Translations under genes and position numbers: made by a program
Shown: positions 4,228 to 9,240 of the stretch, in pieces
Layout: every line of letters begins with the position of its first letter
Numbering within the stretch: position 1 is the first letter of the stretch
The notes under the pieces: model-generated
What the model saw: only the letters and a program-made list of their open reading frames with translations
What the model was told of the DNA's origin: nothing
Databases searched by the model: none
Source of the DNA: a virus
Reading direction: 5' to 3' (one strand)
IMG/VR virus record: IMGVR_UViG_3300044911_001066
Location: 1 to 23,618 of that record
Length of the DNA stretch: 23,618 nucleotides

Positions 4228-5076
4228 ATGACACTTGTAGAACTCTGGGACGCCTTCCTCGCTGAGCGTTCTATTGCCTTGTGCCCAACAAGCCTTACCT
4301 CTGACTACCGGCAGGTTCGCAAGTGGTTGATTCGATGTCCTGTGCAGGACCTCAGCCACGCAAGACAGGTGATGATCTGGGTCCTAGGCGAAAAGCCTGT
4401 GCTGTCGTCACGGCGCGTGGCGATGTACACCAAAAGCATGTACAAGTGGGCGGCGCAAGAGGATGTTGGCTACCTAGAACGCAACCCGCTGGCCAGCTTC
4501 AAAATGCCGAAGGCGCCGCAAAAAGACGAGGAGATTGTCGTAATACCACGCAATGAAGTCGGCATAGTGCTTGCTGCACTTGCTGCAAAATGCAGCTATC
4601 AAGATGTCAACTGGTCGTGGTACACCGAGTTCATGCTGCAAACTGCAATGCGCACTGGTGAGGTGCGAGCTTTGAGATGGTCAGACATCAGGGAAAATAA
4701 GATCCTTGTACATAGCAACTGGACACTGACACACGGTTATAAAGACAGCACTAAAACCAACAAGAAGCGATGGGTGCCGTTGAACAGTAAATGCCAAGCC
4801 ATCCTTGAGCAACTGCCACAGGAAAACGAGTGCATCTTCCCGTGGAATCGAGTGGCGTTTCAGAGTTACTTCCGTAAAAAGCTGCAGCCGTTGCATGGCG
4901 CTGGGTTGATCTCCCACCTGTACCGTCCGTACGACTGCAGGCATACGGCAATCAGCCGCTGGATTGAAGCCGGAATCCCAGTGCCACAGGTGGCTGCATG
5001 GGCCGGCAACACCAGCGAGGTGATTTTCAAGCACTACTGCAATACCACCCAAGAGTACGAGATGCCTGTACTATGA
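4228..5076 (+). CDS. int: Tyrosine recombinase / phage integrase (282 aa)
   Basis: It would catalyse site-specific integration of the phage into the host chromosome. The N-terminal ~90 residues fit a SAM-like core-binding domain. The catalytic part shows R142 (AMRTGEVRALRWSDI), a lysine-bearing beta turn near K176-K180 (TKTNKKRWVPL), R238 in YDCRHT, and the nucleophile Y270 in FKHYCNT. Two usual positions differ: the first His of HxxR is Tyr (Y235), and the His of the 'LGH' position is Asn (N261 in WAGNTSE). Similar substitutions occur in some phage and cyanobacterial integrases, so I do not read this as inactivation. Length and completeness suggest a functional gene. It sits after a strong terminator, and I found no good promoter in the short gap before it. 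Confidence 0.9.
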   Translation: MTLVELWDAFLAERSIALCPTSLTSDYRQVRKWLIRCPVQDLSHARQVMIWVLGEKPVLSSRRVAMYTKSMYKWAAQEDVGYLERNPLASFKMPKAPQKDEEIVVIPRNEVGIVLAALAAKCSYQDVNWSWYTEFMLQTAMRTGEVRALRWSDIRENKILVHSNWTLTHGYKDSTKTNKKRWVPLNSKCQAILEQLPQENECIFPWNRVAFQSYFRKKLQPLHGAGLISHLYRPYDCRHTAISRWIEAGIPVPQVAAWAGNTSEVIFKHYCNTTQEYEMPVL

Positions 5077-6832: not shown

Positions 6833-7102
6833 ATGATCGAAGTCATCGCCGCAGTAGCTGGCGCAAGTATCTCAGTTGCTGCCATGGGCGCAATGGGATT
6901 CAGCCGAAAAAATGACGAGGCGAGAGATGCCGTGGTGCGTTTGACTTCGGCCGTCGAACACATAGCCACGCAGTTGGAAGTGCTCCACACGGACATCAAG
7001 GATGATCGCCGCGAAACATTCCAACGCCTTGGTGCCGTCGAACAGCGGGTAGTCAAACTAGAAGCCAAGGACAACTGGGTAGGCGACGAACGACGTAGGT
7101 AA
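6833..7102 (+). CDS. Membrane-anchored coiled-coil protein, possible holin or spanin-like (89 aa)
   Basis: I chose the ATG at 6833; the frame extends further upstream but only through the antisense-like coding of the previous gene. Residues 3-23 (IEVIAAVAGASISVAAMGAM) form one hydrophobic helix, followed by a charged helix from about 29 to 78 (VEHIATQLEVLHTDIKDDRR, ETFQRLGAVEQRVVKLEAK) with coiled-coil heptads. This layout fits a small inner-membrane phage protein, such as a class III holin-like or membrane-docking protein. The stop overlaps the next start (TAATG). The family is not identified with confidence. Confidence 0.65.
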   Translation: MIEVIAAVAGASISVAAMGAMGFSRKNDEARDAVVRLTSAVEHIATQLEVLHTDIKDDRRETFQRLGAVEQRVVKLEAKDNWVGDERRR

Positions 7103-7293
7103 TGGAATCCACCGTTGTCAACATCCGCGATCTAGGCCAAGGCTTCACGATCGAACAGCTGGAAAACGAAGCCGGCCACATCTTTTACCGCATGTGCCAT
7201 GGCAGTATCTGCCGGTATTGCGAAGACGAGTACATGGCCTACATGTACGCCGAAGGTGCCGGCTGGGACCGCCTGCTACTGGCTGATCCATAG
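7102..7293 (+). CDS. Conserved hypothetical protein (63 aa)
   Basis: The ATG overlaps the previous stop by one base. The product (MESTVVNIRDLGQGFTIEQL ... GHIFYRMCHGSICRYCEDEY) has a small Cys cluster (CHGSICRYC) and many aromatic residues. I do not recognise a function. Tight coupling to the preceding membrane protein supports co-expression. Its end overlaps the end of the convergent HNH gene by 18 bases. Confidence 0.6.
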   Translation: MESTVVNIRDLGQGFTIEQLENEAGHIFYRMCHGSICRYCEDEYMAYMYAEGAGWDRLLLADP

Positions 7294-7587
7294 CTTGATC
7301 GCGTCTTCAAGGTGCGGCTCCCAGAAATGCTGCGCCCGAAACCACTCGAGCCAATCAGTACACGACCCTTTACTCATGTTGCAGGCGTAACAGCAACCAA
7401 CCAAGTTGCTGCGTCGCGTCTCACCACCTTTGGACTTGGGGCGTACGTGATCCAACGTCCCGGACCTACCCAAAGGTTCCCGGCAGTAGGCACACTTATT
7501 CCCCCAAAAGTTAAGGATATGTTGTCTAAATCGTGCCTTCGCCTCACGTTTACTAAAGAATTCCGTGCCCTCGATGTGATGTTCCAT
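7276..7587 (-). CDS. HNH endonuclease (103 aa)
   Basis: A compact HNH fold is visible: zinc knuckle C32-x2-C35 (NKCAYC), the core LDHVRPKSKGG with D46-H47, N61, the second knuckle C66-x2-C69 (CCYAC), and N70 with K73 (CNMSKG). It is complete and of usual length for small phage HNH proteins. It is the only leftward gene between the rightward virion and lysis modules, which marks it as an independent insertion. It may be a homing-type enzyme or a packaging-associated HNH; since no large terminase or portal gene is adjacent, homing seems likelier. Confidence 0.85.
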   Translation of the reverse strand: MEHHIEGTEFFSKREAKARFRQHILNFWGNKCAYCREPLGRSGTLDHVRPKSKGGETRRSNLVGCCYACNMSKGSCTDWLEWFRAQHFWEPHLEDAIKLWISQ

Positions 7588-7686
7588 GTGGGCACGGCTC
7601 TGTAGTGAATTTAGCTACAAACCCAGGTCGCTACTTGCTTTTTACCCTTCAGGCTATAGACTTACACACAGCACTAATTTGCTGCC

Positions 7687-7827
7687 ATGGAATTTTTGTC
7701 CCATCCCGCCTTCTGGATCGTGGTCGCTGCTGCCAGCGAACTGATCGCCGTGTCACCCCTCAAAAGCAACAGCATCATCCAGCTGGTGCTGCAAATCCTG
7801 ACGCTGATCAAGGCAAAAAAGGTCTGA
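7687..7827 (+). CDS. Small holin-like membrane protein (46 aa, zero-frame product)
   Basis: Translation reads MEFLSHPAFWIVVAAASELI, then AVSPLKSNSIIQLVLQILTL and a basic end (IKAKKV). It has a hydrophobic segment around 8-23 and a second amphipathic or hydrophobic helix at 28-41. Short proteins of this exact style occur in cyanophages, usually unannotated. The gene lies directly upstream of the endolysin, which points to a lysis role such as a holin. The codons AAA AAG just before the stop form a slippery heptamer (see the entry at 7815). No clear ribosome-binding site precedes the ATG. Confidence 0.75.
   Translation: MEFLSHPAFWIVVAAASELIAVSPLKSNSIIQLVLQILTLIKAKKV
7815..7821 (+). other. Candidate -1 programmed frameshift site (A AAA AAG)
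   Basis: The heptamer A-AAA-AAG is in the exact zero-frame phase (GCA AAA AAG GTC TGA) used by bacterial dnaX-type -1 frameshifting, and the zero-frame TGA comes one codon later. A -1 slip enters an open frame that runs to 8066 and lacks any ATG, GTG or TTG start of its own between 7687 and 7824. A weak stem (TCGGC 7834-7838 with GCCGA 7855-7859) begins 12 bases downstream. A one-base deletion in the six-A run, biological or from sequencing, would look the same. Confidence 0.5.
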
Positions 7828-8066
7828 TCGGTTTCGGCAAAGCAGGCTGGCAGCGCCGACTGGAACGTGCCATCAATGACTGGTGGTTTCACAAAACGCT
7901 GCCCGCCAAGCTGGACAAGGCCGAAGCCGACTGGCACGCAACTCAACCACCGGCCACCCCACCGCCCGTTGTCGTGGAGCATCCCATCGACGAAACACGG
8001 CAGACTGGTGAAAGCCGCTTGTTGGGCGGCCCCATGAGTATCCACGCACCCTGGCGCCGTGACTAA
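7821..8066 (+). CDS. Second-frame cytoplasmic extension (81 aa), probably made as a fusion to the 46-aa membrane protein
   Basis: The -1 frame reads GLIGFGKAGWQRRLERAIND, WWFHKTLPAKLDKAEADWHA, then a proline-rich linker (TQPPATPPPVVVEH) and a C-terminal tail ending APWRRD. The Trp- and Lys-rich amphipathic pattern looks like real protein, and no other frame covers this stretch. No standard start codon opens it near 7824, so it is best explained as a 126-residue fusion product made by frameshifting at 7815-7821, or by initiation at a rare CTG or ATC codon. Its stop overlaps the endolysin GTG start by 8 bases, so its translation would feed the endolysin. Function unknown. Confidence 0.5.
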   Translation, partial: GLIGFGKAGWQRRLERAINDWWFHKTLPAKLDKAEADWHATQPPATPPPVVVEHPIDETRQTGESRLLGGPMSIHAPWRRD

Positions 8067-9240
8067 CAAGATCCGCCTAGTCGATCTATTCCGTTACTAC
8101 AAGTCACTGCCCCATCAGATGGCAGCCGTAACCGAATTAGAGGAACTTATCAATAAAGCCAACCCACACATCTTCGGGCGCGAGCAGTCCTGGTTCAAGA
8201 CCTGGAGCCAATCCGGTAAGCAGCAGGACTACACGCCGGCATTAAAACTTATCAAAGAATTCGAAGGTTCCCATTTGAGCGCCTACCCAGATCCACTGCA
8301 CGGCTGGGACGTTGCAACCATCGGCTTTGGCACCACCCGCTACCAGGACGGTCGCAAGGTAAAGCAAGGTGACAAGGTAACCGTGATCGAAGCGGACCAG
8401 TTACTACTGCAGGAAGTCGAACGCATCGCCAAGCATTTGTACGGCAAAATCCCGCACTGGGACGAAATGCGCGTGACGCAGCAGTCCGCGTTAATCAGTT
8501 TCGCCTACAACCTCGGTGCCGATTTTTACGGTGCCAAGAACTTCGAGACAATCAGCAACCGTCTACGCGACAAGCAATGGGACAAAGTAGCTGCGGCGAT
8601 GCTGCTTTACCGCAACCCGGGTACATCGGTAGAAGCCGGCCTGTTGCGTAGACGCGAGGCAGAAGGTCGCCTATGGGCACAGAACACAACAGCAATGCCA
8701 GCGCAGACCAGCAACTCTGCGGTCAATTTGAAAGTCCCGTACGAGTACCAACTCGACAATGGGGCCACCGGTTACCGGGAATGTTTCAGTTCCAGTTGCG
8801 CGATGGTCGCCCGCTACTGGGGCAAGATCGCCGGGGACCACGAGTACAACCGTATCCGCTGCCAGTTTGGAGACACAACTGACGCCAAGGCCCACATCCT
8901 GGCGTTAAAAACCCTCGGTTTACGGGCAACGTTCGAGATGGAAGGCACTGCCAGCATCCTCGAAGGTGAAATTCGCTCGGGCTACCCCACACCAGTCGGC
9001 TGGCTACACAAAGGTCCCGCCACAGATCCAAAAGGTTCCGGCCACTGGAGCGTTGTGACCGGCTTCACCAGCACCCACTTCATCCACAACGACCCCAACG
9101 GTGAAGCGGACATGACAAACGGTGGCTACGTTAACCACAAGGGTGGTGCAGGAATTGCATACTCCAGGCGTAACTGGCTGCGACGCTGGCTCGTCGATGG
9201 TCCGGAATCCGGATGGTTTATGAGAGTTCGCCCCACCTAA
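8059..9240 (+). CDS. Bifunctional endolysin: GH24 lysozyme fused to C39-like peptidase (393 aa)
   Basis: The GTG at 8059 is the only start compatible with the upstream overlap. Residues 1-55 form a helical N-terminal region (IRLVDLFRYYKSLPHQ) also found on other cyanophage hydrolases. Residues 60-210 are a T4-lysozyme-type (GH24) muramidase with the triad E69 (EFEG), D78 (YPDP) and T87 (TIGFG). A linker (residues ~208-222) leads to a papain-like C39 domain at ~225-392, with C242 (RECFSSSCAMV), H329 (GSGHWSVVTG) and D345 (HNDPNG). The enzyme would cut both the glycan and a peptide bond of peptidoglycan, or cleave protein, during lysis. The fusion of these two domains is uncommon. Both active sites look intact. 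Confidence 0.85.
   Translation: MTNKIRLVDLFRYYKSLPHQMAAVTELEELINKANPHIFGREQSWFKTWSQSGKQQDYTPALKLIKEFEGSHLSAYPDPLHGWDVATIGFGTTRYQDGRKVKQGDKVTVIEADQLLLQEVERIAKHLYGKIPHWDEMRVTQQSALISFAYNLGADFYGAKNFETISNRLRDKQWDKVAAAMLLYRNPGTSVEAGLLRRREAEGRLWAQNTTAMPAQTSNSAVNLKVPYEYQLDNGATGYRECFSSSCAMVARYWGKIAGDHEYNRIRCQFGDTTDAKAHILALKTLGLRATFEMEGTASILEGEIRSGYPTPVGWLHKGPATDPKGSGHWSVVTGFTSTHFIHNDPNGEADMTNGGYVNHKGGAGIAYSRRNWLRRWLVDGPESGWFMRVRPT

Follow-up and report, generated by a model that had tools for sequence, protein, structure and literature searches.

A conserved slippery heptamer and a predicted programmed −1 frameshift in a small membrane-protein gene of the cyanophage lysis region

Why does a small membrane-protein gene, lying directly ahead of an endolysin gene, end on a slippery heptamer that leads into a second open frame? 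The question arose from a 23,618-base viral record of IMG/VR (IMGVR_UViG_3300044911_001066), which was analyzed at its full length and is called the window here; its relatives are cyanosiphoviruses of the S-CBS3 type. A preliminary description had proposed a programmed frameshift in a holin-like gene. Our comparison of related sequences, made without expression data, leaves us highly confident that, in cyanophages, programmed −1 ribosomal frameshifting is a conserved feature of this lysis-region gene. That confidence does not extend to the function of the gene.

The locus and its two reading frames

The features of the window that matter here are as follows.
6833 to 7102, + strand: gene for an 89-aa protein (phrog_26178) with a hydrophobic N terminus and a coiled-coil-like remainder, a conserved neighbor
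7687 to 7827, + strand: 46-aa membrane ORF (zero frame, predicted short product; phrog_22542, E=1e-21; AlphaFold2 hairpin)
7815 to 7821, + strand: slippery heptamer A_AAA_AAG in zero-frame phase, one codon ahead of the TGA
7821 to 8066, + strand: −1 frame ORF of 81 aa plus TAA, with a predicted helix, a proline linker, and a C-terminal MSIHAPW motif
7825 to 7827, + strand: zero-frame stop TGA (in the family, 0 or 1 codon past the heptamer)
8059 to 9240, + strand: endolysin with a GTG start, a PF00959 phage lysozyme domain, and a C39-like peptidase domain

The 46-codon ORF translates as MEFLSHPAFWIVVAAASELIAVSPLKSNSIIQLVLQILTLIKAKKV. Its 3′ end, given in the preliminary description as GCA AAA AAG GTC TGA, can be read directly at 7813 to 7827, and the heptamer is in the zero-frame phase, as claimed. 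The 81-codon −1 frame, with its TAA at 8064 to 8066, and the predicted fusion of 126 aa (45 + 81) were likewise described correctly. An overlap between the −1 stop and the endolysin start had been pointed out as well; it measures 8 nt in the window and turned out to be general, since 139 of the 142 loci that could be checked have an endolysin start lying over the last part of the −1 ORF, with an overlap of 4 to 32 nt. Shifted ribosomes would therefore finish where endolysin translation begins.

The −1 frame had further been said to have no start of its own nearby. Across the family no start is conserved in the −1 ORF: the first ATG, GTG, or TTG falls anywhere from codon 0 to codon 70 (n = 189), and 7 of the 189 ORFs contain none of the three. 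An internal start was rejected because its position is not conserved. One refinement concerns the window itself, where the −1 frame is also open upstream as far as a GTG at 7605 (153 aa). We attribute this upstream start to chance, as relatives such as L006, L011, L012, L021, and L026 have a TAA in the −1 frame three codons ahead of the slip-site region.

In the isolates examined, existing annotations do not contain the fusion. The records of S-CBS3 and S-CBS1 have pieces of the −1 frame that start late (gp22 and gp23, respectively), and that of S-B28 annotates neither frame.

Two other ORFs of the window were noted. A 103-aa HNH-endonuclease-like ORF (7276 to 7587, − strand) lies antisense within the lysis region, flanked by the coiled-coil and membrane genes; in S-CBS3 an annotated HNH endonuclease is placed after the endolysin instead. 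A 282-aa ORF (4228 to 5076, + strand), with a tyrosine integrase-like reading, is located among the tail and lysis genes.

Conservation of the slip site and explanations of the junction

The −1 frame peptide alone, used as a query, found 78 relatives in viral contigs. A profile of the membrane protein gave 508 or more matches in viral contigs, of which the best 80 were used, and a podovirus-type profile gave 357, of which again 80 were used. Pooling 335 loci gave 226 distinct junctions from cyanophage contigs and the isolates S-CBS1, S-CBS3, KBS-S-2A, S-EIV1, and S-B28; these counts are not independent. The −1 domain and a canonical X_XXY_YYZ heptamer occur together in 199 of the 226 junctions. 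The −1-domain profile recognized 189 of them, and the other 10 are podovirus variants (S-B28, WH11-B, 7B11-B, and contigs) that have CCA AAA AAG TAA followed by a −1 frame of 47 to 62 codons. The extension of these variants typically ends in ...GWSISLTSPW, shares the C-terminal motif, and matches the phrog_6464 profile (E=1.5e-4). Heptamer and domain are both missing in 24 junctions, and exceptions to the pairing number three (L111, L154, and L332). The membrane gene was also seen on contigs of MAGs labeled Hyphomonadaceae, Blastopirellula, TMED88, and Planctomycetota (L329 to L331 and L333), some with the frameshift site and the domain; these are probably misbinned phage contigs.

Across the 199 domain-bearing junctions the heptamer varies only within X_XXY_YYZ with Y=A. 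Most junctions carry A_AAA_AAG, with A_AAA_AAC in 2, C_CCA_AAG in 8, and G_GGA_AAG in 3 (including the isolate S-EIV1). All 188 A-type members have AAA in the P site, and AAG occupies the A site in 197 of the 199 junctions, while lysine codons elsewhere in the same gene are mixed (144 AAA and 241 AAG). Ahead of the site, the alanine codon that supplies the first heptamer base is always GCA. Synonymous entropy is 0 at this codon and at both site codons, compared with about 0.6 to 2.5 bits at other degenerate positions. The zero-frame stop, for which all three stop codons serve across the family, lies one codon past the heptamer in 186 junctions and directly after it in 14. Median dN/dS is 0.32 for the −1 ORF (976 pairs) and 0.31 for the membrane ORF, with values of 0.11 to 0.13 for the −1 ORF between the window and L007/L009, which indicates that the −1 ORF is under purifying selection, as is the membrane ORF. 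The preliminary description had suggested checking relatives for conservation of the heptamer and of both frames and for suppressed synonymous variation, and its proposal passed on each count; the unconserved second frame that would have refuted it was not encountered.

Several lineages lack both elements. In the L156 type CGC AAA TGA overlaps the endolysin ATG, and podoviruses of the MedDCM-OCT-S37-C6 type have CCA AAG AAA CAG. The domain-less L282, L310, and L311 encode a Phe-Pro-Lys-Arg end with TTC CCC AAG or TTC CCT AAG where domain-bearing relatives use TTC CCA AAG, so that a single synonymous difference separates them from the heptamer. In the membrane-protein relatives of phrog_15106 (P60, S-SRP01, S-CBP1, S-CBP3, S-CBP4, and DSL-LC07; L168 to L172 and L176), the P60/S-CBP-type members have no heptamer, and short charged in-frame C-terminal tails replace the frameshifted domain. 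Only these members and L332 have longer in-frame tails, which are unrelated to the −1 domain. As for the exceptions, L111 (two contigs; junction GTA AAG AAG GGC TAG) is the only lineage in which the domain persists although the heptamer is broken, and it has no start codon at the overlap; L154 has the heptamer and a −1 frame of merely 12 codons without the domain. In L332 (5113 to 5296 of a Cyanobium sp. N5-Cardenillas contig), there is no heptamer, and a GTG that overlaps the zero-frame stop (AAGTGATC) gives the domain a start of its own. L332 probably uses reinitiation, which would be a natural swap of frameshifting for stop-start coupling.

On a tree of the 46-aa protein, which is poorly resolved, the domain state changes about 7 times, and only 2 supported independent pairs speak to co-loss, too few for a powered test; the Fisher p value computed from the junction counts is accordingly no test over independent events. 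With this reservation, the codon pattern indicates that the slip site is held beyond amino-acid constraint and is lost along with the domain. These natural replicates, namely heptamer swaps, co-loss, and replacement by reinitiation, show with unusual clarity that the slip site is under selection.

Could the junction be explained without a ribosomal frameshift? The preliminary description had itself warned that a one-base loss in the A6 run, whether an assembly or sequencing indel or the decay of a pseudogene, would break one gene in the same way, and A6 runs are indeed indel-prone in some technologies; the window reads like a fused gene minus one A. The same state, however, recurs in 199 distinct junctions, isolates included, a continuous fused frame is absent from all relatives checked, and purifying selection acts in both frames. 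S-CBS1 has seven A's at the site and yet keeps the same phase and stop. The occurrence of C_CCA_AAG, G_GGA_AAG, and A_AAA_AAC in divergent lineages excludes indel error and slippage on the A run alike, the first two having no A run longer than three. The heptamer swaps and the independent isolates led us to reject an indel or pseudogene, for which practically no room is left. Transcriptional slippage on the A run, which would yield a mixed mRNA population encoding the same fusion, could appeal to the homopolymers (A6, and A7 in S-CBS1). A run of six is, however, short for slippage by bacterial polymerases, the C_CCA_AAG and G_GGA_AAG lineages carry the fused domain all the same, and the zero-frame phase of the heptamer is always retained; we regard this explanation as extremely improbable.

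Termination followed by reinitiation, with a restart in the −1 frame at an overlapping CTG (cTGA) or another nonstandard codon, would instead give a separate domain protein. The stop always lies 0 to 1 codon past the slip site, a CTG overlaps it in many members, and L332 is a probable user of this route. In many other members, though, a CTA, TTA, GTA, or other codon stands at the overlap (CTCTAG, CGTTAA, AAGTAA), and no canonical start has a conserved position. Reinitiation also leaves unexplained why the heptamer is otherwise invariant and is replaced solely by other X_XXY_YYZ sequences, and we consider it very unlikely as a general mechanism. The slip site, the two frames, their co-occurrence, and the endolysin overlap are established by comparison of sequences; that the slippage is ribosomal and occurs in vivo is our inference.

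We propose that most ribosomes stop just past the slip site and release a two-helix membrane protein of about 46 aa, while a fraction would slip by −1 at X_XXY_YYZ, add a domain of roughly 47 to 93 aa, and terminate atop the endolysin start. The fusion would be membrane-anchored, with an amphipathic, C-terminally conserved domain facing the cytoplasm. Among the 34 of 36 tRNA genes of a Cyanobium genome that were examined, with Rfam and ARAGORN, tRNA-Lys(UUU) is the sole lysine tRNA and no CUU species is present. A tRNA-Lys(UUU) without a CUU partner is a decoding condition known to favor slipping on A_AAG. Stimulators are usual at such sites, though not obligatory, and none is evident here. 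No Shine-Dalgarno-like element was found upstream (GGAG lies 6 to 18 nt upstream in 1 of 199 junctions). Compared with shuffled sequences, 45-nt windows downstream show a slight excess of stability (mean z about −0.7 to −0.8; comparison windows upstream and further downstream have −0.1 to −0.4), and no conserved or covarying downstream stem was found with RNAalifold, which gave 13 pairs, all weak, of which one has a double change. This agrees with the weak stem noted in the preliminary description. Tailed phages do have known −1 shifts that lack stimulators (PMC5009743).

The predicted products and their possible role in lysis

The membrane part is predicted to form two helices, residues 7 to 22 and 29 to 44 (an AlphaFold2 hairpin, pLDDT 76), has invariant Ser17-Glu18 and Asn28, and ends in the basic sequence KAKK. 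If the protein inserts as we infer, the positive-inside rule would place this tail, and hence the −1 domain, in the cytoplasm. The −1 domain is predicted to contain a long helix (residues 9 to 40), a proline-containing linker after it, and short strands at 50 to 53 and 72 to 75 (AlphaFold2, pLDDT 84.5), the second strand being the conserved MSIHAPW. Sequences of named phage records were excluded from the input to these structure predictions. Against the PDB, its fold gave no match and its sequence nothing convincing, and a plasmid search with the domain had no match. Against viral models, good scores were obtained only for cyanophage relatives: two matches have lengths fitting S-CBS3 gp22 and the S-EIV1 protein, and one is an S-PM2 protein. 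The cyanomyovirus homologues (phrog_6464/T4-GC_410 and S-PM2 GC 852) are stand-alone genes of unknown function; an ETGxFGxxGWSI motif is common to T4-GC_410 (phrog_6464; L173 to L175 from P-RSM1, S-SSM7, and metaG-MbCM1) and the podovirus −1 domain. The domain occurs, then, in two settings: as a gene of its own and as a predicted frameshift extension.

What might the short product do? It fulfills the criteria for a holin in being small and in having two predicted membrane helices and a basic tail. The endolysin follows immediately downstream and has, by eye, no hydrophobic N terminus; the phrog_26178 protein on the other side has a spanin-like layout, with only a weak Rz-like profile match (E=0.048). 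In T7-like cyanophages the gene lies between the tail fiber and the small terminase, and the T7 holin gene 17.5 is located between the same two genes. The preliminary description had called the gene holin-like. Position and predicted hairpin shape support this, and family profiles do not: compared with described holin families, the membrane part has no Pfam match, and its profile homologues in PHROGs (phrog_22542 and phrog_15106) are all of unknown function. Holins are polyphyletic, so a missing profile match is not decisive. The short product is most likely a class II-type holin or a holin-like protein, a reading inferred from position and anatomy in the absence of hole-forming data.

It is also conceivable that the frameshift is real but serves a gene unconnected with lysis. 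The pair could belong to the virion or its assembly, the −1 domain being a minor addition at the C terminus, recruited in the manner of the Ig-like domains of phage structural proteins. Phage capsid and tail proteins are known to carry C-terminal extensions reached by frameshifting (PMC5009743), the role of the stand-alone cyanomyovirus homologues is unknown, and the absence of a holin profile match would fit. A 46-aa hydrophobic helix hairpin beside an endolysin and a coiled-coil-like membrane protein is, however, not easily accommodated, and neither are the place of the gene at the T7 holin 17.5 position in T7-like cyanophages and the overlap of the −1 ORF with the endolysin start. We consider a virion or assembly role rather unlikely without dismissing it. 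A tail assembly chaperone (G/GT) does not fit, the gene lying after the tail fiber genes and before the endolysin and having no chaperone profile match.

Returning to lysis, the endolysin and coiled-coil-protein neighbors and the T7 holin 17.5 position led us to a reading in which the short form is holin-like and the fusion is a minority form with a regulatory or coupling role. Resting on position and anatomy, it is a real possibility that we rate just short of even. We hypothesize more tentatively, and with distinct doubt, that a minimal holin and a holin fusion acting as antiholin or endolysin coupler form a lysis-timing switch whose ratio is set by slippage. If this is true, DNA phages would have a holin/regulator pair encoded by frameshifting, distributed over cyanobacterial sipho- and podoviruses. 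In hundreds of aquatic cyanobacterial viruses one small gene appears to yield two membrane proteins, and the frameshift may help set the time at which infected cells burst. The locus offers a testable route to lysis timing in cyanophages, about whose lysis proteins little is known. It is also a clean example of frameshifting in a cyanobacterial setting with no stimulator in evidence.

Comparison with known systems

As a mechanism, −1 frameshifting at A_AAA_AAG is familiar; what appears to be undescribed is the gene, its location in the lysis region, and its wide occurrence among cyanophages. We found no frameshift in a lysis gene or holin of a DNA phage in a search of mainly open-access literature, and this argues only weakly that none exists. 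In tailed phages, tail chaperones and extensions of structural proteins supply most known cases of programmed frameshifting; here it would concern a small membrane-protein gene in the lysis region.

The cyanophage site resembles dnaX- and IS-type sites in having the same heptamer in the same zero-frame phase and, in the one host-type genome examined, only tRNA-Lys(UUU). It differs from them in lacking a detected upstream Shine-Dalgarno-like stimulator or conserved downstream hairpin, in having its zero-frame stop always within 0 to 1 codon, and in that the product is a phage membrane protein. With the gpG/gpGT tail assembly chaperone frameshift of tailed phages it has in common a phage gene with short and C-terminally extended products, a heptamer near the 3′ end, and a downstream structure that is often weak or absent; the cyanophage gene, however, sits beside the endolysin or the small terminase and not upstream of the tape measure gene. 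The phrog_6464 domain is encoded by a stand-alone gene, whereas its cyanophage counterpart here would be attached by frameshifting.

If the short product is a holin, the closest parallel in output is with lambda S105/S107 and phage 21 S68/S71, where one membrane gene also gives two products with a shared membrane part. Those pairs arise from two starts and are 2 to 3 N-terminal residues apart, while the cyanophage products would differ by a C-terminal domain of about 47 to 93 aa added by frameshifting. In MS2, expression of the lysis gene reportedly depends on frameshifting in the coat gene and reinitiation (Kastelein, 1982, is said to have described this), and is in this way likewise tied to a change of frame and to termination. 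MS2 is an RNA phage, and it makes a separate lysis protein rather than a membrane protein fused to an extra domain; it is nevertheless the nearest precedent that we found.
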